Below, one piece after another: positions 6,712 to 60,475 of a stretch of 64,000 nucleotides of DNA (the stretch's first letter is position 1; every line of letters starts with the position of its first letter). A program made the position numbers and the translations under genes. Source of the DNA: Lathyrus oleraceus. Taxonomy: Eukaryota > Streptophyta > Magnoliopsida > Fabales > Fabaceae. The stretch covers positions 460,867,197 through 460,931,196 of the forward strand of contig NC_066581.1 of assembly GCF_024323335.1 (NCBI RefSeq), written 5' to 3'. The notes beneath the pieces are model-generated. The model did not search any database and was not told the DNA's origin. It saw only the letters and a list, made by a program, of their open reading frames with translations.

Positions 6712-7020
6712 TATCGCAACCTGAAAAATGGAATGCGAAAAAAAAAACAATCGGCGAAGAAAGACAGGAGAGTCGCCACCGTGCGTTATTTATCCCAAAG
6801 GAGGGAAAGGAAACGCTCGAAGTAAACCTGGGAAAAGGAAAGGACAAGACAGGGTCTCGCAACCAAATCTTGGGTTCGGGAGTCGATTATGCGAAGGGAA
6901 GGTATTAGCACCCCTACGCATCCGTAGTACTATACGGGATCCACTTTTGTAGTTCTTGTCTAAAGGGTGTGGGTTTATCTAATGTGTTATTTACTAAAAA
7001 AAAGGGTCAAAAGAAAATGA

Positions 7021-7196
7021 CTCGCACAGATGTCGCATCCACTGCATACGTATCTCATCTGAATATGAGAATCAGAGTCTTCGTAGCTCGGCTACCTAGG
7101 GGTTAAGGGTAATTGTGCTCGCTAAGACATCGCGTCTTATGCCTACGTATCTCATCTGAAATGAGAATCAGATCAAGCCGTAGTTCGGCTAACTGC
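7021..7196 (-). other. Two copies of the Ogre LTR double-hairpin module
   Basis: Copy one has hairpin 2 stem TCTCAT/ATGAGA (7053-7070) with loop CTGAAT and an outer TACG/CGTA pairing. Copy two has hairpin 1 stem AAGAC/GTCTT (7124-7138, loop ATCGC) and hairpin 2 stem CTCAT/ATGAG (7151-7165, loop CTGAA). See findings for the covariation. Confidence 0.7.
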
Positions 7197-10490: not shown

Positions 10491-10835
10491 AATCTGTATT
10501 TTCTACCATGAACTACGAAACTCTGATATTCTCATTGCACTATGAGAATACGTAGGCACGAGGGTCTGAATCCTTGGCGAGCACACTGATTTAAAACTTA
10601 TTTTCCCCTATCACAAGTAACTTTCAGATAGCAACGTCCATCCACGCAAAGAACAATGAAAGCGGTTCCCGTTGAGTACAACGGATATGAGGGTGCTAAT
10701 ATCTTTTCCTTGCATAATCGACTCCCGAATCTACTCTTGGTTGTGAAGACCATTTTTAGAAGTTTTATCGATATTTTCCCTTTCCTTGGAATAAATAAAG
10801 TTCGGTGGCGATTCTATATTTTTCGCGACGCGACA
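10491..10835 (+). repeat. Decayed terminal part of an Ogre-family LTR
   Basis: In reverse complement this resembles the terminal 350 bp of the Ogre LTRs here: the structured module, a stretch like gtattagcacccctacgcat, the ggtggcga...ct decoy, and a terminal gcgaca. It ends CA at 10835 and no primer site follows, so it is probably a 3' LTR end. The copia element inserted into it; the rest is off-window or lost. Confidence 0.7.
10505..10590 (+). other. Ogre LTR hairpin module, diverged copy
   Basis: The stem ATTCTCAT/ATGAGAAT encloses TGCACT, with an outer CTACG/CGTAG pairing. The same architecture lies in the younger LTRs with other stem sequences. Confidence 0.6.
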
Positions 10836-23490: not shown

Positions 23491-24084
23491 ACGGTCGCTT
23501 GAATTGGGGATTAAGCCTCATAGAGGACCCGATATCCACCGTGAAAGTCGAATCATACGAGCATGCATGAACTGGACCCGGCTTAGACGTAAGTCCGTTC
23601 GAGAATTGATGTTTCGTGATCTGAATAATGATCGTGGTTGAGTTGTGAGAACTCAGGTGCATATTGCCATACATTGCGAGTTAGTTTCCCCATCGCTTAA
23701 GTCTCCGTTCCCTTGTTGAGTTGAGTTGAATATTGATTAGAAAACCCTGTAGAGCCGAGTGTCGCTCCCCAGATTTCCCGAATCCAAGTACAAACGCGAA
23801 AAAAGTGGCGAGGAAAAAGAGTAGAGTCGCCAGCTATGTACTTTTATCCCATGAGGAGGGAAAGGTAGTACTGCATAACCAAGAGGGAACGAATAAAACA
23901 AAGTCTCGAACCAAAGAAAACTGAGTAAGGGGGCCGGTTACGTGAAGGGAAGGTTATCGCACCCCTTCACGTCTGTGGTACTCCACAGGATCCACGCTTG
24001 CCATTTATGTCTAAAGTGTGCGTGTAAAAAGTCCTATACGCGATACGAAAGAGAGAAAATCAAAGTAGGGAAAAGAAAGAGTTA

Positions 24085-24165
24085 TTGCTCGCACAGGCCC
24101 TACCCTGCTGCATACGTATCTCAAGAAGGATTGAGAATCCGAGCACCGTAGCTCGACTAACCTAT
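24085..24165 (-). other. Ogre A LTR double-hairpin module (3' LTR copy)
   Basis: Hairpin 1 is CAGG/CCTG (24094-24107). Hairpin 2 is TCTCAA/TTGAGA (24119-24136, loop GAAGGA), enclosed by TACG/CGTA. It lies downstream of the TATA box, so it is in the transcript. Confidence 0.7.
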
Positions 24166-25784
24166 TTTTGTTTGTTTTGTGTTTTTTAGATGAACGACGT
24201 TACTACGCAATCTACCGGATGCTCGACCTTTGGAGACTTACTCACCTGTAGTAGAAGGAGTTAACGTGTTCTTAAGAAAAGAAAATCAAAGAGTTTGTTT
24301 GTGTTTTAGGAATGCTCATGCAAAAAGGAAGTCCTAGACGAAGGAACCGTGCTACCTTAATTGACATGCAAACGTGAGACTATACGAAGCCTAGCAATCC
24401 TATGGGGAGACGATCACACCACACAAAAACATATAGCATAAAGTAAACACACCAACAAGGGGGCTCAAACATACATGGGTAGGGCTTTAGTCAAGAGGGG
24501 TCATATCAACCTCGACAAACAAGCCATGGAAAGGTAATCAAATGGGCTCTTAACGACTAACATTGAACGTCAGGGTGAGCAGATCAAAAGGGTAATGAGG
24601 ATAAGACCTCATAGCTCTTAACCCTGGACAGGGTGAGCTCATGACAAAGCGTGGGGGTTCAGAAAGATGGAACCCTCTACACTGACTGACCGGACAAAAG
24701 ATCTCGGGCTTTTATTCTGAAGCATCGACACGAAATGCGAGCATATAGAACGACACACTGAATAATGGGGGATTGACTGCTGATCCCTTTTATCCGTCAA
24801 TTGCCTCTTCATGGAGGTCTTTAGCACTGGTGCCTCCTCTTGGAGGTCTTTGGGCACAAAAGTAAACACACAAAAACATTGCCTCCTATCGAGGTCTTCC
24901 AGCTAAGAAAGCGGTAAAATGCGGGAAAGATGTAAAAGGGATCAAGAGATCTACCACACGGATAAAGATCCGAAGTAACAATAACTAAAGAATCAAGAAA
25001 CCCAGAGATCTCTCAGGCTAGCACCATCAAAGAAAGCAAGTCAGCAAAGCAATCAAAATAAATCTCCAAATGGCATCCCACAAATAAAGTGGAATACCAA
25101 GCAAGCTATCTCTTTAAGAGTCATGTGAGCCCTCACAAAAACTCAACAAACAAGTTAGAAAAACAAGATGGGGTGCAATCAAGAGTTGCACCAAACAAGA
25201 GAATCATAACAACAACAACGTCAGGTAAACAGTGCACGAATGCAATAGGGAACATGTCACAACAAACACAAAACAGATTAGAGAGCAAACAGAAAAACCA
25301 ACTACTGTCATGATCGCTACTGCTTCGCTTAGCGAAGACTTAGCGAAGCTTCGCTACAGGTTCGCCTAGCGAGGTGCTAGCGAATGCCTGCGGGTTCTGG
25401 GTTCTTCCTTGATAACAGTCCAATTTCAGAAAACCCTAAATCCTATGGTATCCATTTCAGAAACTAAGTGATTAAACATTCAAGGCATTGTTCTACACAT
25501 TCATGCACATCTTAACCCACATGCAAAACCTAATGATACCCACTCTCCCAAATTCACCCGTAATGTCTCATACTTCAAAAATTTCAAATTGAAAGAATAA
25601 AGTAATGGAAATAGAGCAAACCTGATTGGAGAGATCGATTGAAATTGAAATGCACGGTTGGATTTACAAAGCAATGTTAGGGTTCATGTGAGATGGAATT
25701 GATAGAGGTGGTTTTGTGCAAGTGAGTTTTTAGTGTGTATGGAGGCTGCACGAAAATTAGGGTTTTGCTCAAATGAACTTTTAG

Positions 25785-25794
25785 AATTTATACT
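25785..25794 (-). promoter_or_regulatory. TATA-like box, Ogre A 3' LTR
   Basis: The minus strand reads AGTATAAATTC. This places U3 at 25800-26547 and the structured modules in R/U5. Confidence 0.5.
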
Positions 25795-25864
25795 CTGATT
25801 TTTGTGGCTTGGTGGGCTCAGAATGAAGGCAATCCAAGTCCAAGACTTTTCGTTATTTTTGTAA

Positions 25865-26185
25865 GCTCCCTAGGCGAGCGAGGTAGCGAAGGGTTCGCTA
25901 GGCGAGCACTCAGCGAGGTTCCAGCGAACACTCCCAGACTTGGATAAAAACATAGCTAGCACTTACTCACTAGGCGAGTGTCCAGCGAGCAGGTAGCGAG
26001 CAATTCCAGTAGCAACATCGTCAGGGTTCGCTGGAGCGAAGGGGGAAGCGTGGGCTTCGCCTAGCAAAGGATTGCTCGCCTAGCGAGCATGACAGTTCAG
26101 GAAGTTCTTCTGGGCGCAGGTGACTCCGGTGGCTAATTTTGGGACTCGCTAGGCGAACCATTCTGCTCGCCTAGCGAGCATGACA
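25865..26185. repeat. Cluster of CGCTAGGCG / CGCCTAGCG palindromes in Ogre A U3
   Basis: About ten short inverted units recur, such as gctcgcctagcgagc (stem GCTCGC/GCGAGC), ttcgctaggcgag and ttcgctggagcgaa. The partner cluster is at about 57970-58300 in the 5' LTR. One unit also occurs at 8334-8351 in the solo LTR. Confidence 0.8.
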
Positions 26186-26547
26186 GCTCAGGAACATCTT
26201 TCCAAATTTAGTAACCGGTGCACTGGACCTTTGTTCCTTCGAGATTAATGTTTTGAATGATGAATATACCCCATTTGAACATGTTGGAAGTATCTCAAGT
26301 CATTCCCTAGCCATTTGACCCTCAGTTGACCAACAGTTGACTTTTGACTTCACAGTTGAATACAAACTTCCTTGAGTGTTGACTGATCATTCAGATAGAA
26401 CCCATAAAGTGACTCGGATGATATCTAAGCTTCTTGGAAGACAAACTCTTGGAGCTAATTCTGATTGACATGATGAAATGCAATATGAAATGTTAAATGA
26501 CCTAAAAATGAATGCATGAATGAGGGTGACAAATTTGAGGTGCTACG

Positions 26548-30382: not shown

Positions 30383-32094
30383 CTAGTCTCCATTGACTTG
30401 GTTAATCACTAGAGCAGAATCTCCATAGATGTCCATAGTTTTGATCCTTAGATCGATGGCTTCCTTAATCCCTATGATATAGGCCTCGTACTCAGCTTCG
30501 TTGGTTGTTACTTCAAAAGTCAATCTGGCGGAAAAAGGTATGTGTGCACCTTTAGGATTAATGAGTACTGCCCCAACACCATTTCCATTCACATTTACCG
30601 CCCCATCAAACATCAGTGTCCACTTGTCATCGGGATCCGGTCCTTCCTCGACAAGAGGCTCTTCACAATCTTTCATCTTTAAGTACATGATATCTTCATC
30701 GGGGAATTCAAACATCATCGGCTGATAGTCATCAATTGGTTGCTCAGCAAGGTAATCAGACAGAATACTACCCTTGATGGCCTTTTGCGATGTTGACTGG
30801 ATATCATACTCTGTCAAAATCATCTGCCAACGAGCCACTCGTCCGGTAAGAGCCGGATTTTCAAAGATATACTTTACTGGGGCCATCTTAGAAATTAACA
30901 AGGTAGTATGGTTCAACATATACTGTCTTAGTCGGCGAGCAGCCCATGCCAAAGCGCAACAAGTTTTCTCGAGCAGCGAAATACTTGTTTCACAGTCGGT
31001 AAACTTTTTACTAAGGTAGTATATTGCATGCTCTTTTCGACCAGACTCGTCATGCTGTCCCAATACACACCCCATCGAATTCTCTGTTACTGAAAGGTAC
31101 ATTATCAGAGGCCTCCCAGGAACTGGAGGTATAAGAATTAGAGGTTTCTGCAAATATTCTTTTATCTTATCAAAAGCTTTTTGACAATCATTATTCCACC
31201 TGATTGCTTGATCTTTTCTTAGCAATTTAAATATCGGTTCGCACGTAGCTGTTAGGTGAGATATGAACCGTGCAATGTAGTTCAGTCTCCCTAAAAACCC
31301 ACGAACCTGCTTTTCCGTTCTTGGTTCAGGCATTTCTTGAATAGCTTTTACTTTCGCTGGATCAACCTCAATCCTTTTCTCACTGACAATGAAACCTAAC
31401 AGCTTTCCAGATCTCACTCCAAATGTACACTTGTTTGGATTCAACCTCAGTTTGAACTTTCTCAATCTTTCAAACAACTTTTGCAAGTTTACCAAGTGCT
31501 CCTCTTCTGTCTGAGACTTCGCAATCATATCATCCACGTACACTTCAATTTCTTTGTGCATCATGTCATGAAAGAGAGTCGTCATAGCTTTTTGGTAGGT
31601 AGCACCAATGTTCTTCAACCCAAATGGCATTACCTTATAACAGAACATGCCCCAAGGTGTAATGAATGTCGTCTTCTCCATGTCTTCTGGCGTCATCTTG
31701 ATCTGATTATAGCCAGAAAATCCATCCATGAAAGAGAAAACCGAGGACTGAGCAGTGTTATCGACCAATACAACAATGTGAGGTAATGGGAAGTCATCTT
31801 TCGGATTGACTCTGTTTAAATCTCGGTAATCGACGCACATCCTGACTTTACCATCCTTCTTCGGCACGGGTACGATGTTGGCCACCCAAGGGGGATAATT
31901 GGTAACTGCTAGAAAACCTGCATCCAACTGTTTCTGAACCTCTTCTTTGATCTTGACAGCCATATCAGGACTAGTTCTGCGAAGCTTCTGCTTTACCGAA
32001 GGACAATCTTCTCTGAGAGGTAGCCTGTGCACCACAATATCTGTATCCAAACCAGGCATATCTTGATACGACCATGCGAATACGTCCACATATT
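30383..32094 (-). pseudogene. Ogre A reverse transcriptase and RNase H (5' end displaced)
   Basis: RT of the Tat/Ogre lineage. Visible: VCVDYRDLN-type block (MCVDYRDLNRVNPKDDFPLP), FSFMDGFSGYNQIKM, catalytic EVYVDDMIAKS, LGFIVSEKRIEVDPAKV, gypsy RNase H (LSVTENSMGCVLGQHDE, AIYYLSKKF), then a second RNase H (LMFDGAVNVNGNGVG, TNEAEYEA). Dual RNase H is known for this lineage. The frame starts abruptly at the Ogre B border; the N-terminal 90 residues lie at 54298-54589 beyond it. It ends at a TAG in place of Trp at 30383. Confidence 0.92.
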
Positions 32095-32397
32095 TGTCGC
32101 AACCTGAAAAATACAGTGCGCGAAAAAACAACCGGCGAAAGAAAAAGACAGGAGAGTCGCCACCGTGCGTTATTCATCCCAAAGGAGGGAAAGGAAACGC
32201 TCGACGTAAACCTGAAAAAGGAAAGGACAAGACGGGGTCTCGCAACCAAATCTTGGGTTCGGGAGTCGGTTATGCGAAGGGAAGGTATTAGCACCCCTAC
32301 GCATCCGTAGTACTCTATGGGATCCACTTTTGTGGTTTTCGTCTAAAGGGTGTGGGTTTACCTAATGTGTTTATTTACTAAAAAGGTTAAGAGAAAT

Positions 32398-32582
32398 GAC
32401 TCGCGCGGATGTCGCATCAACTGCATACGTATCTCATCTGAATATGAGAATCAGAGTCTTCGTAGCTCGGCTGACCTATGGGTTAGGGGATGTGTGCTCG
32501 CTAAGACATCACGTCTTATGCCTACGTATCTCATCTGGAATGAGAATCAGAGCAAGCCGTAGTTCGGCTAACTACGGGGTTA
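32398..32582 (-). other. Two copies of the LTR double-hairpin module (Ogre B 3' LTR)
   Basis: The first has GGAT/ATC(A) and TCTCAT/ATGAGA (loop CTGAAT). The second has AAGAC/GTCTT (loop ATCAC) and CTCAT/ATGAG (loop CTGGA), with outer CTACG/CGTAG. Both lie downstream of the TATA box. Confidence 0.7.
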
Positions 32583-33525
32583 TGGAGTGGGTTTTGGATG
32601 AACGACGTTACTACGCAATCTACCGGATGCTCGACCTTTGGAGACTTACTCACTTGTAGTAGAAGGAGTAAACGTGTGTTATGGAGAAGAAAAATCAATG
32701 AAGGGTTTGTTTGCATTGTAGGAACGCGCATGCAAAAGGGTAATGAGGATAAGACCTCGTAGCTCTTAACTCTGGACAAAGGAACCTGCATAAAGTAAAC
32801 ACAAAAACATTGCCTCCTATCGAGGTCTTCCAGCTAGGAAAGCAGTAAAATGCGGGAAAAATGTAAAAATACCACGCGGATAAAGATCCGAAGTAACAGC
32901 AATTAGAGGAATGGGAAACCCTGAGATCCTTCCAAGCTAACATCATCAAAGAAAGTGGGTCAATACAGGTAATCGGAATGAACCTCCAGGGGTTATCCCA
33001 CAAATAAAGTGGGAAACCATGCAAGTTATCCCTGTAAAAGTCATGTGCCTTCACAAAAACTCAACAAAAGGGTTAGTGAAACAAGATAGGGTAACCAAGA
33101 GTTGCCCCCAAATCAAAATGTAACCACATGAATAATTCCATCAAAATTCACAAAAAGCTCACAAAAAGCAACCAAGGGTAGGAGGCCTAAACCTCTTGTC
33201 AAACTCATGCATCAAAAGGGTATCAAATTCACCCATAATACCTCATACATCTAGAGCATTCAAATTAAAGGCATAAAGATGATGGATATAGGGCAAACCT
33301 GATTGGAGAGCTTGATTGAAATTGAGTTGCACCCGTGAGGTTTACAAAACAATCTTTAGGGTTTATGTGAGGCAGAGGTGATTCTGTGCAGTTGAGTTCC
33401 CTTCAGGGTTTGGAGGCTGCTCTGAACTCTGTTAGTTCTTCTCTCACTATCTTTTTCCTCAGGGTTTTGTTCCAAGGAAACCTCAGAGTATTTTGCTTCC
33501 CTTCTTTTCTCAAGTGAAGCCTTGG

Positions 33526-33534
33526 TATTTATAG
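33526..33534 (-). promoter_or_regulatory. TATA box, Ogre B 3' LTR
   Basis: CTATAAATA on the minus strand, conserved at 53976-53984 in the other LTR. It sets R/U5 to the left, where the modules are. Confidence 0.6.
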
Positions 33535-33589
33535 ACTGAATTCCATGGCTTTGTGGGCTCAAATGAGAGGGACCCAAGTCCAAAATTTT

Positions 33590-33672
33590 TTTGTTATATT
33601 TTATTTATTTATTTAATTAATTTTATTTATTTATTTATTTTTAACTTTTTTTTTTTTCGTTTTTTTTTTTTT
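33590..33672. repeat. T-rich low-complexity tract, Ogre B 3' LTR
   Basis: TTTA units and T-runs; shorter than the 54030-54156 counterpart. Confidence 0.85.
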
Positions 33673-33979
33673 AAAGTTTCTTGGATCTAATTCTGATTGA
33701 CATGATGAAATGCAATGTATCTAATGTTAAATGACCTAAAAATGAATGCATGCATGAGGTGTAAAGCGTATGCTTCCAGGAAAAATGAAGGGTAAATTTT
33801 GGGGTATTACAGCTGCCCCTATTCAATCAACTGGAGACCCGGAAAGAAGATGGCAGCTGCTTTCGTACTTTCGAGGTATCAAGGGATTGAATACAATAAA
33901 AGCCCAAAAATTTGCACTGAAGTGAAGTGAAGTGACAATGCCTATCAGAATCGGCAAAGAGGTGGCCTTGAAAGAAGAA

Positions 33980-34820
33980 TCCGTCTGGTACGGTGAGAGT
34001 CAGTCTGAATATCGAAAAAGAATGTTAAACTGGATACCAAAATAAATGGTAACACATAAATAACCATGGCCTGAATGCCGCTCATCAGTCTGAATACTAG
34101 AAATGACTTCGATCTGAACATCGGGAGATATGAGATTATTAATATCGGTCTGAACACCGAGAGGTTGGCCTGAATGCCACAAGTTGCGTCGACCTGAACG
34201 TCGGAAACTTCTTCGATCTGAACATCGGAAAATTGGCCTGAACGCCACAAGTTGCATCGACCTGAACGTCGGAAACTTCTTCGATCTGAACATCGGATAA
34301 TTGACCTGAATGCCACAAGTTGCATCGACCTGAACGTCGGAAACTTCTTCGATCTGGACATCGGAAAACTGGCCTGAACGCCACTTCGGTCTGAATACCA
34401 GAAACTGGCCTGAACACCACTTCGATCTGAATATCGGAAATTGGCCTGAACGCCACTTCGATCTGAATATCGGAAATTGGCCTGAACGCCACTTCGATCT
34501 GAATATCGGGAAAACTGGCCTGAATGCCACTTCGATCTGAATATCGGAACACTGGCCTGAATGCCACTTCGGTCTGGATACCGGAAAACTGGCTTGAATG
34601 CCACTTCGGTCTGGATACCGGAAAACTGGCCTGAATGCCACTTCGGTCTGGATACCGGAAAACTGGCCTGAATGCCACTTCGGTCTGGATACCGGAAAAC
34701 TTCATGCCTGTCAACATTGGCAGAAATAGGGAAAGATAATAGAGGCGGCGCATGGGCCAATGACACTTGCTGGGGATAACCAAGGTGGGTCATGAACAAT
34801 CTTCAGTCTGAGTACTGGAA
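33980..34820. repeat. Ogre B 3' tandem array of mini-hairpins with CTGAAY loop
   Basis: The main part has 37-bp units (CGGT starts at 34570, 34607, 34644, 34681). Upstream is a 68-bp higher-order unit (34180-34340). Each 37-bp unit holds two short hairpins with loop CTGAAT, CTGAAC or CTGGAT. Stems seen: CGAT/ATCG, CGAC/GTCG, CGGT/ACCG, TGGC/GCCA, CCGT/ACGG, CAGT/ACTG. The array is free of stops in all three minus frames, giving overlapping false ORFs of 200-284 codons. Confidence 0.9.
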
Positions 34821-52528: not shown

Positions 52529-52546
52529 TCCCCAGCAGAGTCGCCA
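52529..52546 (-). other. Primer binding site, tRNA-Arg (Ogre B)
   Basis: TGGCGACTCTGCTGGGGA on the minus strand, two bases after the LTR end. It is the primer site known for Ogre elements. Confidence 0.93.
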
Positions 52547-52847
52547 GCTGTCGCAACCTGAAAAATACAGTGCGCGAAAAAACAACCTGTGAAAGAAAAA
52601 GACAGGAGAGTCGCCACCGTGCGTTATTCATCCCAAAGGAGGGAAAGGAAACGCTCGAAACCTGAAAAAGGAAAGGACAAGACGGGGTCTCGCAACCAAA
52701 TCTTGGGTTCGGGAGTCGGTTATGCGAAGGGAAGGTATTAGCACCCCTACGCATCCGTAGTACTCTACGGGATCCACTTTTGTGGTTTTCGTCTAAAGGG
52801 TGTGGGTTTACCTAATGTGTTTATTTACTAAAAAGGTTAAGAGAAAT

Positions 52848-53032
52848 GACTCGCGCGGATGTCGCATCCACTGCATACGTATCTCATTTGAATATGAGAA
52901 TCAGAGTCTTCGTAGCTCGGCTGACCTATGGGTTGGGGGATGTGTGCTCGCTAAGACATCGCGTCTTATGCCTACGTATCTCATCTGGAATGAGAATCAG
53001 AGCAAGCCGTAGTTCGGCTAACTACGGGGTTA
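52848..53032 (-). other. Two copies of the LTR double-hairpin module (Ogre B 5' LTR)
   Basis: First: GGAT/ATCC (loop GTCGC) and TCTCAT/ATGAGA (loop TTGAAT). Second: AAGAC/GTCTT (loop ATCGC) and CTCAT/ATGAG (loop CTGGA), with outer CTACG/CGTAG. Confidence 0.7.
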
Positions 53033-53975
53033 TGGAGTGGGTTCTGGATGAACGACGTTACTACGCAATCTACCGAATGCTCGACCTTTGGAGACTTACT
53101 CACCTGTAGTAGAAGGAGTAAACGTGTGTTATGGAGAAGAAAAATCAATGAAGGGTTTGTTTGCATTGTAGGAACGCGCATGCAAAAGGGTAATGAGGAT
53201 AAGACCTCATAGCTCTTAACTCTGGACAAAGGAACCTGCATAAAGTAAACACAAAAACATTGCCTCCTATCGAGGTCTTCCAGCTAGGAAAGCAGTAAAA
53301 TGTGGGAAAAATGTAAAAGTACCACGCGGATAAAGATCCAAAGTAACAACAATTAGAGGAATGGGAAACCCTGAGATCCTTCCAAGCTAACATCATCAAA
53401 GAAAGTGGGTCAGTACAGGTAATCGGAATGAACCTCCAGGGGTTATCCCACAAATAAAGTGGGAAACCACGCAAGTTATCCCTGCAAAAGTCATGTGCCT
53501 TCACAAAAACACAACAAAAGGGTTAGTGAAACAAGATAAGGTAACCAAGAGTTGCCCCCAAATCAAAATGTAACCACATGAATAATTCCATCAAAATTCA
53601 CAAAAAGCTCACAAAAAGCAACCAAGGGTAGGAGGCCTAAACCTCTTGTCAAACTCATGCATCAAAAGGGTATCAAATTCACCCATAATACCTCATACAT
53701 TTAGAGCATTCAAATTAAAGGCATAAAGATGATGGATATAGGGCAAACCTGATTGGAGAGCTTGATTGAAATTGAGTTGCACCCGTGAGGTTTACAAAAC
53801 AATCTTTAGGGTTTATGTGAGGCAGAGGTGATTCTGTGCAGTTGAGTTCCCTTCAGGGTTTGGAGGCTGCTCTGAACTCTGTTAGTTCTTCTCTCACTAT
53901 CTTTTTCCTCAGGGTTTTGTTCCAAGGAAACCTCAGAGTATTTTGCTTCCCTTCTTTTCTCAAGTGAAGCCTTAG

Positions 53976-53984
53976 TATTTATAG
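53976..53984 (-). promoter_or_regulatory. TATA box, Ogre B 5' LTR
   Basis: CTATAAATA on the minus strand. Modules at 52848-53032 are about 950-1130 nt downstream, so they lie in the RNA leader. Confidence 0.6.
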
Positions 53985-54029
53985 ACTGAATTCCATGGCT
54001 TTGTGGGCTCAAATGAGAGGGACCCAAGT

Positions 54030-54156
54030 CCAAAATTTTTTTGTTATATTTTATTTATTTATTTAATTAATTTTATTTATTTATTTATTTTTAACTTTTT
54101 TTTTTTTCGTTTTCTTTTTCGTTTTTTTTTTTTGTTTTTTTGTTTTTTTTTTTTAA
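54030..54156. repeat. T-rich low-complexity tract, Ogre B 5' LTR
   Basis: Counterpart of 33590-33672 with extra T/G/C interruptions; accounts for most of the LTR length difference. Confidence 0.85.
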
Positions 54157-54297
54157 GTTTCTTGGATCTAATTCTGATTGACATGATGAAATGCAATGTA
54201 TCTAATGTTAAATGACCTAAAAATGAATGCATGCATGAGGTGTAAAGCGTATGCTTCCAGGAAAAATGAAGGGTAAATTTTGGGGTATTACAATATT

Positions 54298-55874: not shown

Positions 55875-58662
55875 TGTCGCTCCCCGGATTTCCCGAATCC
55901 AAGTACAAACGCGAAAAGGGGTGGCGAGGAAAAAGAGTAGAGTCGCCAGCTATGTACTTTTATCCCATGAGAAGGGAAAGGTAGTACTGCATAATCAAGA
56001 GGGAACGGATAAAGCAAAGTCTCGAACCAAAGAAAACTGAGTAAGGGGGCCGGTTACGTGAAGGGAAGGTTATCGCACCCCTTCACGTCTGTGGTACTCC
56101 ACAGGATCCACGCTTGCTATTTATGTCTAAAGTGTGTGTGTAAAAAGTCCTATATGCGATGCGAAAGAGAGAAAATCAAAGTAGGGAAAAGAAAGAGTTA
56201 TTGCTTGCACATGCCCTACCCTGCTGCATACGTATCTCAAGAAGGATTGAGAATCAAAGCACCGTAGCTCGGCTAACCTATTTTTGTTTGTTTTGTGTTT
56301 TTTAGATGAACAACGTTACTACGCAATCTACCGGATGCTCGACCTTTGGAGACTTACTCACCTATAGTAGAAGGAGTTAACGTGTTCTTAAGAAAAGAAA
56401 ATCAAAGAGTTTGTTTGTGTTTTAGGAATGCTCATGCAAAAAGGAAGTCCTAGACGAAGGAACCGTGCTATCTTAATTGACATGCAAACGTGAGACTATA
56501 CGAAGCCTAGCAATCCTATGGGGAGACAATCACACCACACAAAAACATATAGCATAAAGTAAACACACCAACAAGGGGGCTCAAACATACATGGGTAGGG
56601 CTTTAGTCAAGAGGGGTCATATCAACCTCGACAAACAAGCCATGGAAAGGTAATCAAATGGGCTCTTAACCACTGACATTGAACATCAGGGTGAGCAGAT
56701 CAAAAGGGTAATGAGGATAAGACCTCATAGCTCTTAACCCTGGACAGGGTGAGCTCATGACAAAGCGTGGGGGTTCAGAAAGATGGAACCCTCTCCACTG
56801 ACTGACCGAACAAAAGATCTTGGGCTTTTGTTCTAAAGCATCGACACGAAATGCGAGCATATAGAACGACACACTGAATAATAGGGGATTGACTGCTGAT
56901 CCCTTTTATCCGTCAATTGCCTCTTCATGGAGGTCTTTAGCACCGGTGCCTCCTCTTGGAGGTCTTTGGGCACAAAAGTAAACACACAAAAACATTGCCT
57001 CCTATCGAGGTCTTCCAGCCAAGAAAGCGGTAAAATGCGGGAAAGATGTAAAAGGGATCAAGAGATCTACCACACGGATAAAGATCCGAAGTAACAGTAA
57101 CTAAAGAATCAAGAAACCCAGAGATCTCTCAGGCTAGCACCATCAAAGAAAGCAAGTCAGCAAACAATCAGAATAAATCTCCAAATGGTATCCCACAAAT
57201 AAAGTGGAATACCAAGCAAGCTATCTCTTTAAGAGTCATGTGAGCCCTCACAAAAACTCAACAAACAAGTTAGAAAAACAAGATGGGGTGCAATCAAGAG
57301 TTGCACCAAACAAGAGAATCATAACAATAACAACGTCAGGTAAACAGTGCACGAATGCAATAGGGAACATGTCACAACAAACAAAAAACAGATTAGAGAG
57401 CAAATAGAAAAACCAACTACTGTCACGATTGCTACTGCTTCGCTTAGCGAAGACTTAGCGAAGCTTCGCTACAGGTTCGCCTAGCGAGGTGCTAGTGAAT
57501 GCCTGCGGGTTCTGGGTTCTTCCTTGATAACAGTCCAATTTCAGAAAACCCTAAATCCTATGGTATCCATTTCAGAAACTAAGTGATTAAACATTCAAGG
57601 CATTGTTCTACACATTCATGCACATCTAAACCCACATGCAAAACCTTATGATACCCACTCTCCCAAATTCACCCGTAATGTCTCATACTTCAAAAATTTC
57701 AAATTGAAAGAATAAAGTAATGGAAATAGAGTAAACCTAATTGGAGAGATCGATTGAAATTGAAATGCACGGTTGGGTTTACAAAGCAATGTTAGGGTTC
57801 ATGTGAGATGGAATTGATAGAGGTGGTTTTGTGCAAGTGAGTTTTTAGTGTGTATGGAGGCTGCACGAAAATTAGGGTTATGCTCAAATGAACTTTTAGA
57901 ATTTATACTCTGATTTTTGTGGCTTGGTGGGCTCAGAATGAAGGCAATCCAAGTCCAATATTTTTCGTTATTTTTGTAAGCTCGCTAGGCGAGCGAGGTA
58001 GCGAAGGGTTCGTTAGGCGAGCACTCAGCGAGGTTCCAGCGAACACTCCCAGACTTGGATAAAAACATAGCTAGCACTTACTCGCTAGGCGAGTGTCCAA
58101 CGAGCAGGTAGCGAGCAATTCCAGTAGCAACATCGTCAGGGTTCGCTGGAGCGAAAGGGAAAGCGTAGGCTTCGCCTAGCGAAGGATTGCTTGCCTAGCG
58201 AGCATGACAGTTCAGGAAGTTCTTCTGGGCGCAGGTGACTCCGGTGGCTAATTTTGGGACTCGCTAGGCGAACCATTCTGCTCGCCTAACGAGCATGACA
58301 ACTCAGGAACATCTTTCCAAATTTGGTAACCGGTGCACTGGACCTTTGTTCCTTCGAGATTAATGTTTTGAATGATGAATAGACCCCATTTGAACATGTT
58401 GGAAGTATCTCAAGTCATTCCCTAGCCATTTGACCCTCAGTTGACCAACAATTGACTTTTGACTTCACAGTTGAATACAAACTTCCTTGAGTGTTGACTG
58501 ATCATTCAGATAGAACCCACAAAGTGACTCGGATGATATCCAAGCTTCTTGGAAGACAAACTCTTGGAGCTAATTCTGATTGACATGATGAAATGCAATA
58601 TGAAATGTTAAATGACCTAAAAATGAATGCATGAATGAGGGGGGCAAATTTGAGGTGCTACA
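55875..58662 (-). repeat. 5' LTR of Ogre A (2788 bp)
   Basis: Same length as the 3' LTR with scattered substitutions. The outer CA at 58661-58662 is intact. It contains one double-hairpin module and two palindrome clusters (about 57435-57500 and 57970-58300). Confidence 0.95.
56195..56278 (-). other. Ogre A LTR double-hairpin module (5' LTR copy)
   Basis: TCTCAA/TTGAGA with loop GAAGGA, enclosed by TACG/CGTA. Hairpin 1 is weakened by a substitution (CATG opposite CCTG). Confidence 0.65.
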
Positions 58663-58667
58663 CCGAG

Positions 58668-59674: not shown

Positions 59675-59967
59675 TGTCGCATTACGCGAAAAACCGGTGG
59701 GAAAACGAAACAACAGAGCCGCCACCGTGCGTTATTTATCCCAAAAGAGGGAAAGGAAACGCTCGAAGTAGACCTGGAAAAGACATGGTCTCGCGACCAG
59801 AGAAAGATGGGATCGGGAGTCGGTTATGCGAAGGGAAGGTATTAGCACCCCTACGCATCCGTCATACTCGACGGGATCCACGCACAAAAGAATAGAATAA
59901 GGTTGCTAAAAACTGCTCAGACATCACACAAGGCTGGAAGGAAACACAGAAAAACAAGAGAAACTAA

Positions 59968-60125
59968 CTCGGTAGGATATCGCATCCTGGGACTACGTAG
60001 TCTGTCAGGCACAGACATCAAAGTCGACGTAGTTCGGGACAGGGGAAACGTGCTCGCTAGGATGTCGCATCCTATTCATACGTATCTTCTCTGACAGAAG
60101 AAGAATCAGAGCACTTGTAGCTCGG
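59968..60125 (-). other. Two double-hairpin modules in Ogre C LTR
   Basis: First: AGGAT/ATCCT (59974-59988, loop ATCGC) and GTCTGT/ACAGAC (60000-60016, loop CAGGC), enclosed by CTACGT/ACGTAG. Second: AGGAT/ATCCT (loop GTCGC) and TCTTCT/AGAAGA (loop CTGAC). The stems differ from Ogre A and B but stay paired. Confidence 0.72.
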
Positions 60126-60151
60126 CTAACGCACGCCAAACAAAACACAAA

Positions 60152-60368
60152 TAGGAAACCGACTGCCAATCGATGGACTTATGTTAGACTCCACACAAAC
60201 AGGAAAACCTGGAAACCGAATGCCAATCGCTAGACTTACATCAGACTCCGAACCAACAAACACACACAAGAAACCAACTGCCAATCGCTGGACTTACGTT
60301 AGACTCCAACAAGCAAACAAGACACAGGAAACCAACTGCCAATCGTTGGATTTATGTCAGACTCCAAC
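60152..60368. repeat. Four ~58-bp direct repeats in Ogre C LTR
   Basis: The core tgccaatcg...gactta...agactcc starts at 60164, 60221, 60279 and 60337 (spacing 57-58). The core is kept and the linkers vary. Confidence 0.85.
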
Positions 60369-60409
60369 ACAACACAAAGGGTTGAAAAAGAAAAAGGGCG
60401 TCCGGAGAG

Positions 60410-60475
60410 ATCAGCTCATCTCCTGCCTACGTACCTCATCTGGTATGAGGATCAGGGTGACGTAGTTCCTCTACG
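60410..60475 (-). other. Third hairpin module in Ogre C LTR
   Basis: CCTCAT/ATGAGG with loop CTGGT, enclosed by CTACGT/ACGTAG. Confidence 0.65.

Follow-up and report, generated by a model that had tools for sequence, protein, structure and literature searches.

The long Ogre pol reading frames of the window (the whole 64-kb stretch of DNA analysed here) lie on the minus strand and include the Pfam domains RVT_1, RT_RNaseH, RVT_3 (a second RNase H-like domain) and rve (integrase). The name Ogre is our assignment, presumed from the overall layout of the elements. The reading frame upstream of gag carries Pfam DUF7745, not the plant mobile domain, and two reading frames of the gag region match no Pfam family. 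Elements A and B fit a Ty3-gypsy LTR element, with TG...CA LTRs, a 5-bp target site duplication (TSD) and a primer binding site (PBS) adjoining the 5′ LTR (Table 1). In large plant genomes, Ty3-gypsy elements account for much of the DNA. The insertions are nested: a copia-like element (44.1–50.6 kb) is found within Ogre A (54292 to 32095, minus strand), which is itself within Ogre B (23760–58662). Since reading frames are present on both sides, Ogre A is placed inside the pol gene of the older Ogre B. Only the copy at 10.5 kb (family C) appears to be sense on the plus strand, and family D is oriented like A and B. Tandem repeats around 'GAACATCGG/CTGAACGCC' occur upstream of the Ogre A 3′ LTR (33900–34800) and keep several frames open.

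An earlier, sequence-only reading of this DNA had taken the plus strand as sense. This is ruled out by the genes, PBS, TATA box and TSDs, which are on the minus strand, and is wrong for 11 of the 12 modules described below. The 'TATA box' which it cited on the plus strand, TTATTTATCC (family D, 59732–59742), corresponds to a GGAUAAAUAA towards the 3′ end of the LTR, read in reverse complement, and the true box, TATAAATA, is on the other side. Its proposal that the modules are in the RNA probably stands for element A, where they are downstream of the real TATA box. In this element the TATA box precedes the modules by about 1 kb, and a poly(A)-signal-like sequence and the PBS follow them after a few hundred nt. 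In 74 of 100 LTR loci sampled from the genome, GGAUAAAUAA occurs with at most one mismatch within the last 160 nt before the PBS, the expected place of a poly(A) signal. With the TATA box upstream and the poly(A)-like signal and PBS downstream, the element A modules should be in R and hence not far from either end of the genomic RNA. Judged from these landmarks, the element A module is probably in the RNA.

Table 1. Features of the window, numbered from its first letter
Feature	Position	Strand	Remarks
5′ LTR, element A (TGTAATACCCC ... TTGCGACA)	52549..54292	-	TSD AATAT at 54293-54297 and 32090-32094
3′ LTR, element A	32095..33811	-	
TATA box TATAAATA, element A 5′ LTR	53976..53983	-	counterpart 33533-33526 in 3′ LTR
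Poly(A)-signal-like GGGATGAATAA near LTR 3′ end	52624..52634	-	family D counterpart 59732-59742
PBS TGGCGACTCTGCTGGGGA, element A	52529..52546	-	element B PBS begins 55872
5′ LTR, element B	55875..58662	-	TSD CTCGG at 58663-58667 and just after 23760
3′ LTR, element B	23760..26547	-	
Family D LTR, 3′ part	59675..60475	-	3′ end at 59675
Module, family A 5′ LTR, type UGCUC/GAGCA	52936..53017	-	covariance model 88.7 bits, E 1.3e-16
Helix a 5′ arm CUACG	53008..53012	-	family A module
Helix b 5′ arm UGCUC	53000..53004	-	family A module
Unpaired conserved UGAU	52996..52999	-	family A module
Hairpin S2, UCUCAU (52995-52990)/AUGAGA (52984-52979) and loop	52979..52995	-	family A module
Helix a 3′ arm CGUAG, after unpaired UA	52972..52976	-	family A module
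Hairpin S1, UAAGAC/GUCUUA, loop GCGAU	52952..52968	-	family A module
Helix b 3′ arm GAGCA, conserved C before	52945..52949	-	family A module
Second module, element A 5′ LTR, type GACUC/GAGUC	52839..52920	-	covariance model
Module, element A 3′ LTR	32486..32567	-	covariance model
Module, element A 3′ LTR	32389..32470	-	covariance model
Module, third family A LTR copy	7107..7188	-	covariance model
Module, third family A LTR copy	7010..7091	-	covariance model
Module, element B 3′ LTR	24077..24156	-	covariance model
Module, element B 5′ LTR	56193..56272	-	covariance model
Module, family C LTR	10508..10592	+	covariance model 51.4 bits; sense from LTR-end landmarks
Module, family D LTR, C-rich helix b type	60390..60470	-	covariance model
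Module, family D LTR, UGCUC type	60042..60125	-	covariance model
Module, family D LTR, GACUU type	59957..60037	-	covariance model

The module is a sequence of about 75 nt in the LTR, on the sense strand of the element, with four helices in the order a-b-S2-a′-S1-b′. Helix a crosses helix b and the arrangement is therefore a nested pseudoknot. In sense orientation the layout is GA-R-(a CUACG)-(mostly 1 to 3 nt)-(b NNCUC)-UGAU-(S2)-UA-(a′ CGUAG)-GC-(S1)-C-(b′ GAGNN). The sequence-only reading had described a double hairpin: both hairpins are real and correspond to S1 and S2, but the unit is larger, and the two long-range crossing helices, a (CUACG/CGUAG) and b (NNCUC/GAGNN), are added here. Helix b was first visible in the folding of single modules and helix a through its compensating types, which include CUACG/CGUAG, CUACA/UGUAG and CUACU/AGUAG. 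Those of helix b are UGCUC/GAGCA, GACUC/GAGUC, AACUC/GAGUU, UACUC/GAGUA, GUUC/GAAC and GUUU/AAAC. The joining nucleotides (GA, UGAU, UA, GC, C) are nearly invariant, the conservation of UGAU being partly imposed by the search pattern, whereas the hairpin loops are variable. A C directly precedes b′ in 56 of 57 modules. Loop sequence differs among the S2 hairpins, and the UUUUGAU families do not retain the GCGAY loop of S1. The letters of the common S1 loop GCGAC, with an A added, recur in the LTR terminus GCGACA, which may be a coincidence.

Modules were collected from a genome of 3.8 Gb in 1550 contigs. The PBS has 81,744 matches, from which we sampled the 100 loci listed, the first on contig 1 (L010–L109); sampling by the PBS and then searching upstream avoids choosing modules by their stems. 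The search pattern specified parts of helix a, CUCUGAU and UACGUA, with GC as a filter, and left S1, S2 and the outer part of b free. This pattern gave 200 hits in the 100 loci, the window and L001–L008, of which 187 passed the core filter and 13 failed. Removal of 70 identical copies left 117 distinct modules, including three likely chance hits (L034 -810, L043 -545 and L060 -546). For a second alignment, A1, 59 modules were selected and two of these likely chance hits omitted. A covariance model built from the resulting 57 diverse modules was then run against the window and 99 of the LTR loci (L109 left out).

The model gave 165 matches at E 0.05 or better. Twelve of these are in the window, and each overlaps one of the starts listed in the sequence-only reading (that at 10505 within 3 nt), so that its count of at least ten copies with one layout is borne out. 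At least one module is present in 79 of the 99 PBS-anchored loci, in all 79 on the PBS strand and upstream of the PBS (the weakest is L045, E 0.002). The remaining 20 carry no module detectable by the model; 'all Ogre LTRs', as had been claimed, was thus too broad and the module can be lost or replaced. Module-bearing LTRs contain one to four copies, near the LTR end. Genome-wide, GARCTACG-N3-6-CTCTGAT-N12-26-TACGTAKGC, in which the stems are left free, occurs at 56,510 + 56,051 = 112,561 exact places, and the same pattern reversed, used as a control, occurs at none. When 20 modules were drawn by pattern instead of by PBS, 19 had an LTR-end landmark downstream on the same strand. Scans of IMG/VR and GTDB revealed no plant relatives; the sole IMG/VR pattern match, L009, has bacterial-looking surroundings and was judged to be due to chance.

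Eight representative module-bearing LTRs (A–H) were compared by blastn at E 0.01. Of the 28 pairs, 25 aligned over the last ~240 nt of the LTR and 13 over a module. Alignments elsewhere also occur in several pairs, whereas B–F, B–H and B with the module-less N gave no blastn alignment. In these sequence comparisons the module stands out as conserved, though less than the LTR end. A group of 17 of the 100 LTR loci (L010, L048 and similar) end in ATGACAGAAC or GTTACAGAAC with the same PBS, and the covariance model detected the pseudoknot module in none of the 16 searched (L109 left out).

Covariation was addressed in two alignments, sampled across families of one genome and from loci in one stretch of contig 1. 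The first, in fixed register, contains the 117 distinct modules, 99 of which are usable for b and S1 (18 lack a readable b′). Standard pairs occupy 93.7% of the cells in a, 92.5% in b, 90.7% in S2 and 96.0% in S1, although part of the core conservation and of the inner b pairs is built into this set: the search pattern already demanded the greater part of UACG, CUCUGAU, UACGUA and GC, and a C with three purines was used to place b′. In a null model where the same substitutions were re-dealt along the same tree (500 runs), the means were 51, 59, 47 and 60% for a, b, S2 and S1, and the observed pairing was reached in 0, 1, 0 and 0 runs, respectively. Double changes which keep the pair number 6 in a, 11 in b, 14 in S2 and 14 in S1 against 0.89, 0.97, 0.88 and 1.23 expected, a total of 45 versus about 4. 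Those which break it number 5 over all helices, versus about 4.4 in the null. A further test used trees built without the columns of the helix tested, and here pair-keeping double changes numbered 9 (a), 11–14 (b), 22–23 (S2) and 24 (S1) against 0.73, 0.70, 1.24 and 1.27 expected. Pair-breaking double changes were 0 in a, b and S1 and 5 in S2 (null 1.4).

An R-scape-like all-against-all G test was passed by 5 of 1891 column pairs, four of them among the 22 pairs of the structure. In the fifth, the base preceding helix a is coupled to the final base of a′ (GAG-C/CGUAU, GAA-C/CGUAG). The sequence-only reading had proposed a search for covariation across several legumes and would have taken its absence as a refutation; here, across families of one genome, covariation is present and significant. 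The second alignment, A1 (57 modules, MAFFT, without the b′ anchor), has 92.4% of 1247 cells paired compared to 75.5% in shuffles and a covariation score of 0.555 compared to 0.231, neither value being reached in 500 shuffles, and contains 253 double-change cells. When the partner is slid by 1 to 3 columns, only 27.5–46.4% of cells pair. Three of five measures exceed all 500 shuffles; the two which fail are the number of pairs with a double change (17 vs 15.6) and that of further pair types (47 vs 44.8). RNAalifold recovers b, S2 and S1 without guidance. The helix with the least variation is a, in which one pair carries most of the covariation in A1.

Other indications are less marked. The balance of G·U and A·C changes favours the sense strand only slightly (47 vs 36 events), leaning to sense in S1 and S2 (S1 cells 57 vs 7) and to the opposite strand in b (13 vs 26). 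Folding energies of seven modules give z of -0.8 to -2.8, and the best folds contain b in three of the seven and a in one. The mean MFE is -19.8, compared with -10.2 for b plus the hairpins. As modelled, folding energies single out the fold only weakly, and the programs used cannot score pseudoknots.

Could such matching inverted repeats have been generated by subfamily ancestry, gene conversion or template switching, with no selection on structure? Within a family the modules are close copies and deep families are few, the power of the all-pairs test is limited, and one-sided pair-breaking changes are no rarer than in the null (75 vs about 79), although this is expected if many of the sampled copies are decaying. 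We nevertheless regard this origin as very improbable: tree-based nulls preserve ancestry, and yet each of the four helices has many more double changes than they predict, and repair of palindromes would not yield two long-range crossing helices. Such repeated joint change of paired bases suggests that it is the folded RNA as such that serves the element. The observation that the stems differ but stay paired thus extends, as compensatory changes, to all helices. Within this one genome the proposal of a selected RNA structure is strongly supported by covariation beyond phylogeny-aware nulls, and the fold of the module is very likely under selection.

A function at the DNA level, as a cruciform or as paired transcription factor sites with an ACGT core, is scarcely credible. 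TACGTA is a palindrome, and plant bZIP factors bind ACGT cores, but the variants TATGTA and TAAGTA, which have neither the palindrome nor the ACGT core, still pair with the distant arm; moreover, crossing helices are incompatible within one cruciform and the element A modules are downstream of the TATA box. The same variants bear on dimerisation, which had been suggested from the sequence and which might proceed via the palindrome UACGUA: UAUGUA and UAAGUA lose the palindrome and keep the pairing of helix a, the loops are variable and there is no conserved self-complementary loop. Dimerisation by this route is therefore disfavoured.

Crossing helices might in principle alternate. The spacer between a and b is 1–2 nt in 167 of 187 modules, which is the spacing required by pseudoknot geometry; it suits a pseudoknot and is still compatible with alternating helices. 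In 52 loci with several readable modules, full pairing was found for 110 of 137 combinations of b with its own b′ and for 32 of 246 combinations with the b′ of another module. It is probable that a and b are formed simultaneously and do not represent alternative states.

The helix order is identical to that of the hepatitis delta fold, P1-P2-P3-P1′-P4-P2′, also a nested pseudoknot, in which the catalytic C occurs just before the last strand. This C is shared by the module. That the module is a self-cleaving ribozyme of this type is nonetheless very unlikely. There is no regular counterpart of P1.1 (the loop is complementary to GC in 9 of 57 modules, or 17 of 57 with G-U), helix a begins with C in 54 of 57 and has a conserved GA upstream, in contrast to the 5′ start of P1 in delta-type ribozymes, and UGAU is inserted between b and S2. 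One to four cuts in the genomic RNA would also harm an autonomous element. No Rfam 15 family was found above the gathering threshold in the 64-kb window, and two module stretches searched against Rfam at E up to 10 gave no ribozyme and a single match, to ftsZ-DE (E 5, opposite strand), which was judged to be due to chance. Plant retrozymes, which are hammerhead ribozymes in LTRs, provide another comparison. They resemble the module as small structured RNAs within plant LTRs (PMC11722881), and differ in that the Ogre window has no Rfam match, hammerheads included, at the gathering threshold. A more speculative possibility, which we consider doubtful, is that Ogre carries a new kind of compact RNA fold, not described before, at more than 100,000 places of this one genome. 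It would share its helix order with the delta ribozyme and have a different core. Such a fold could be catalytic or bind a ligand or protein, and could switch between splicing or translation and packaging.

A junction that is conserved, next to loops that vary, points to the folded core as the part that is recognised, more than to loop-loop contacts. We propose that this core would provide a landing site for a trans-acting factor deciding the fate of the full-length Ogre RNA. As a first choice, Gag would select genomic RNA for packaging via the module; as a second, a host factor would export unspliced RNA through it. Extra copies of the module would add binding sites. Taken as a whole, a covarying LTR pseudoknot located in R and acting as such a landing site is the explanation that we moderately favour. 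The position in R, the repetition and the partial splicing of Ogre RNA suggest, as a best guess, a signal for genome RNA fate, with packaging placed before export. The chances that the module is such a candidate signal, for packaging or for export, seem to us evenly balanced, and its assignment to packaging in particular is tentative and less likely than not.

The main rival is one of RNA transport, in which the pseudoknots would recruit a host export factor for unspliced Ogre RNA in a manner analogous to CTE-type elements and the MusD transport element (MTE); taken alone, this appears rather unlikely. The position of the modules near the RNA 3′ end and the repeated copies fit, while the 20 of 99 loci without a module do not. 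The Ogre intron is spliced in only a subset of transcripts (PMC6317226), and as it is partly spliced, unspliced RNA must be exported. The MTE, from a mouse LTR retrotransposon, is a cis-acting RNA in which a pseudoknot is required and the fold outweighs the sequence (PMC3362945; for the fold also PMC12786077), and differs in also having a kissing loop (PMC3362945). By analogy, it would be the nearest functional precedent for the Ogre module. Alternatively, a putative control of translation or RNA stability, in which the modules would either act on ribosomes (pausing, shunting or recruiting them) within a long leader rich in upstream AUGs or stop exonucleases, is a somewhat remote prospect. It is consistent with the 24 AUGs in the 1402 nt from the assumed start site (53950) to the end of the element A LTR and with the multiple copies of the module in tandem. 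On the other side, a non-systematic look at the sequence linked no start codon or reading frame to the modules.

To our knowledge, the leader structures of Ty1, Ty3 and HIV-1 are not present as one to four repeats of one module inside R, and little is known of cis-acting signals in the RNA of plant Ty3-gypsy elements. Like the module, the leaders of Ty1, Ty3 and HIV-1 are structured sequences close to the 5′ end of the RNA; those of Ty1 and HIV-1 contain pseudoknots, and the dimer site of Ty3 is a palindrome (PMC11381356), a feature which is not conserved in the Ogre module. Among the papers listed in literature searches there was no report of this module or of cis-acting Ogre RNA signals, and PMC11656987 is without mention of Ogre, hairpin, conserved motif or splice. 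The strong covariation, near-invariant core and huge natural library of variants offer a testable handle on Ogre RNA export, packaging and translation. The module is also a candidate family for RNA databases and could help to find and classify Ogre LTRs.

Several other features of these LTRs were noted. A strong splice-donor-like CAG/GTGAGTAAGTCTCC immediately precedes the modules in the LTRs of families A and B (53106, 24248 and 7277, all on the minus strand). A general splice-donor logic, with CAG/GTGAGTAAG near the modules by comparison with retroviral packaging signals, was rejected: matches within 2 mismatches occur in only 19 of the 100 loci, 15 of them at -565 to -575. The sequence GGGUGCUAAUACCUUCCC (59831–59849 and 52727–52745, minus strand, and other LTRs; with up to 3 mismatches in 80 of the 100 loci) seems to form the apex of a longer hairpin with variable arms. 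A fixed-register alignment of the GUGCUAAUACC/GGGUGCUAAUACCUUCCC hairpin did not hold, probably owing to differences in the length of the G-run. Another hairpin, with loop AGUA, is found on the sense strand just before the LTR 3′ ends, on the 5′ side of the GUGCUAAUACC motif, and its stem covaries from one family to another (L010–L109). Its stems are CCGUAG/CUACGG, CCGUCG/CGACGG, CCGUUG/CAACGG, CCAUGG/CCAUGG, CCUAGG/CCUAGG and CUGUAG/CUACAG, and 13 of the 27 distinct forms found in 80 loci are fully paired. Finally, GGUGGCGRCU, which nearly repeats the beginning of the PBS (TGGCGACTC), is found inside the LTR (52608–52618, minus strand) and in the last 140 nt of 84 of the 100 loci; in element A it is about 70 nt upstream of the true PBS.
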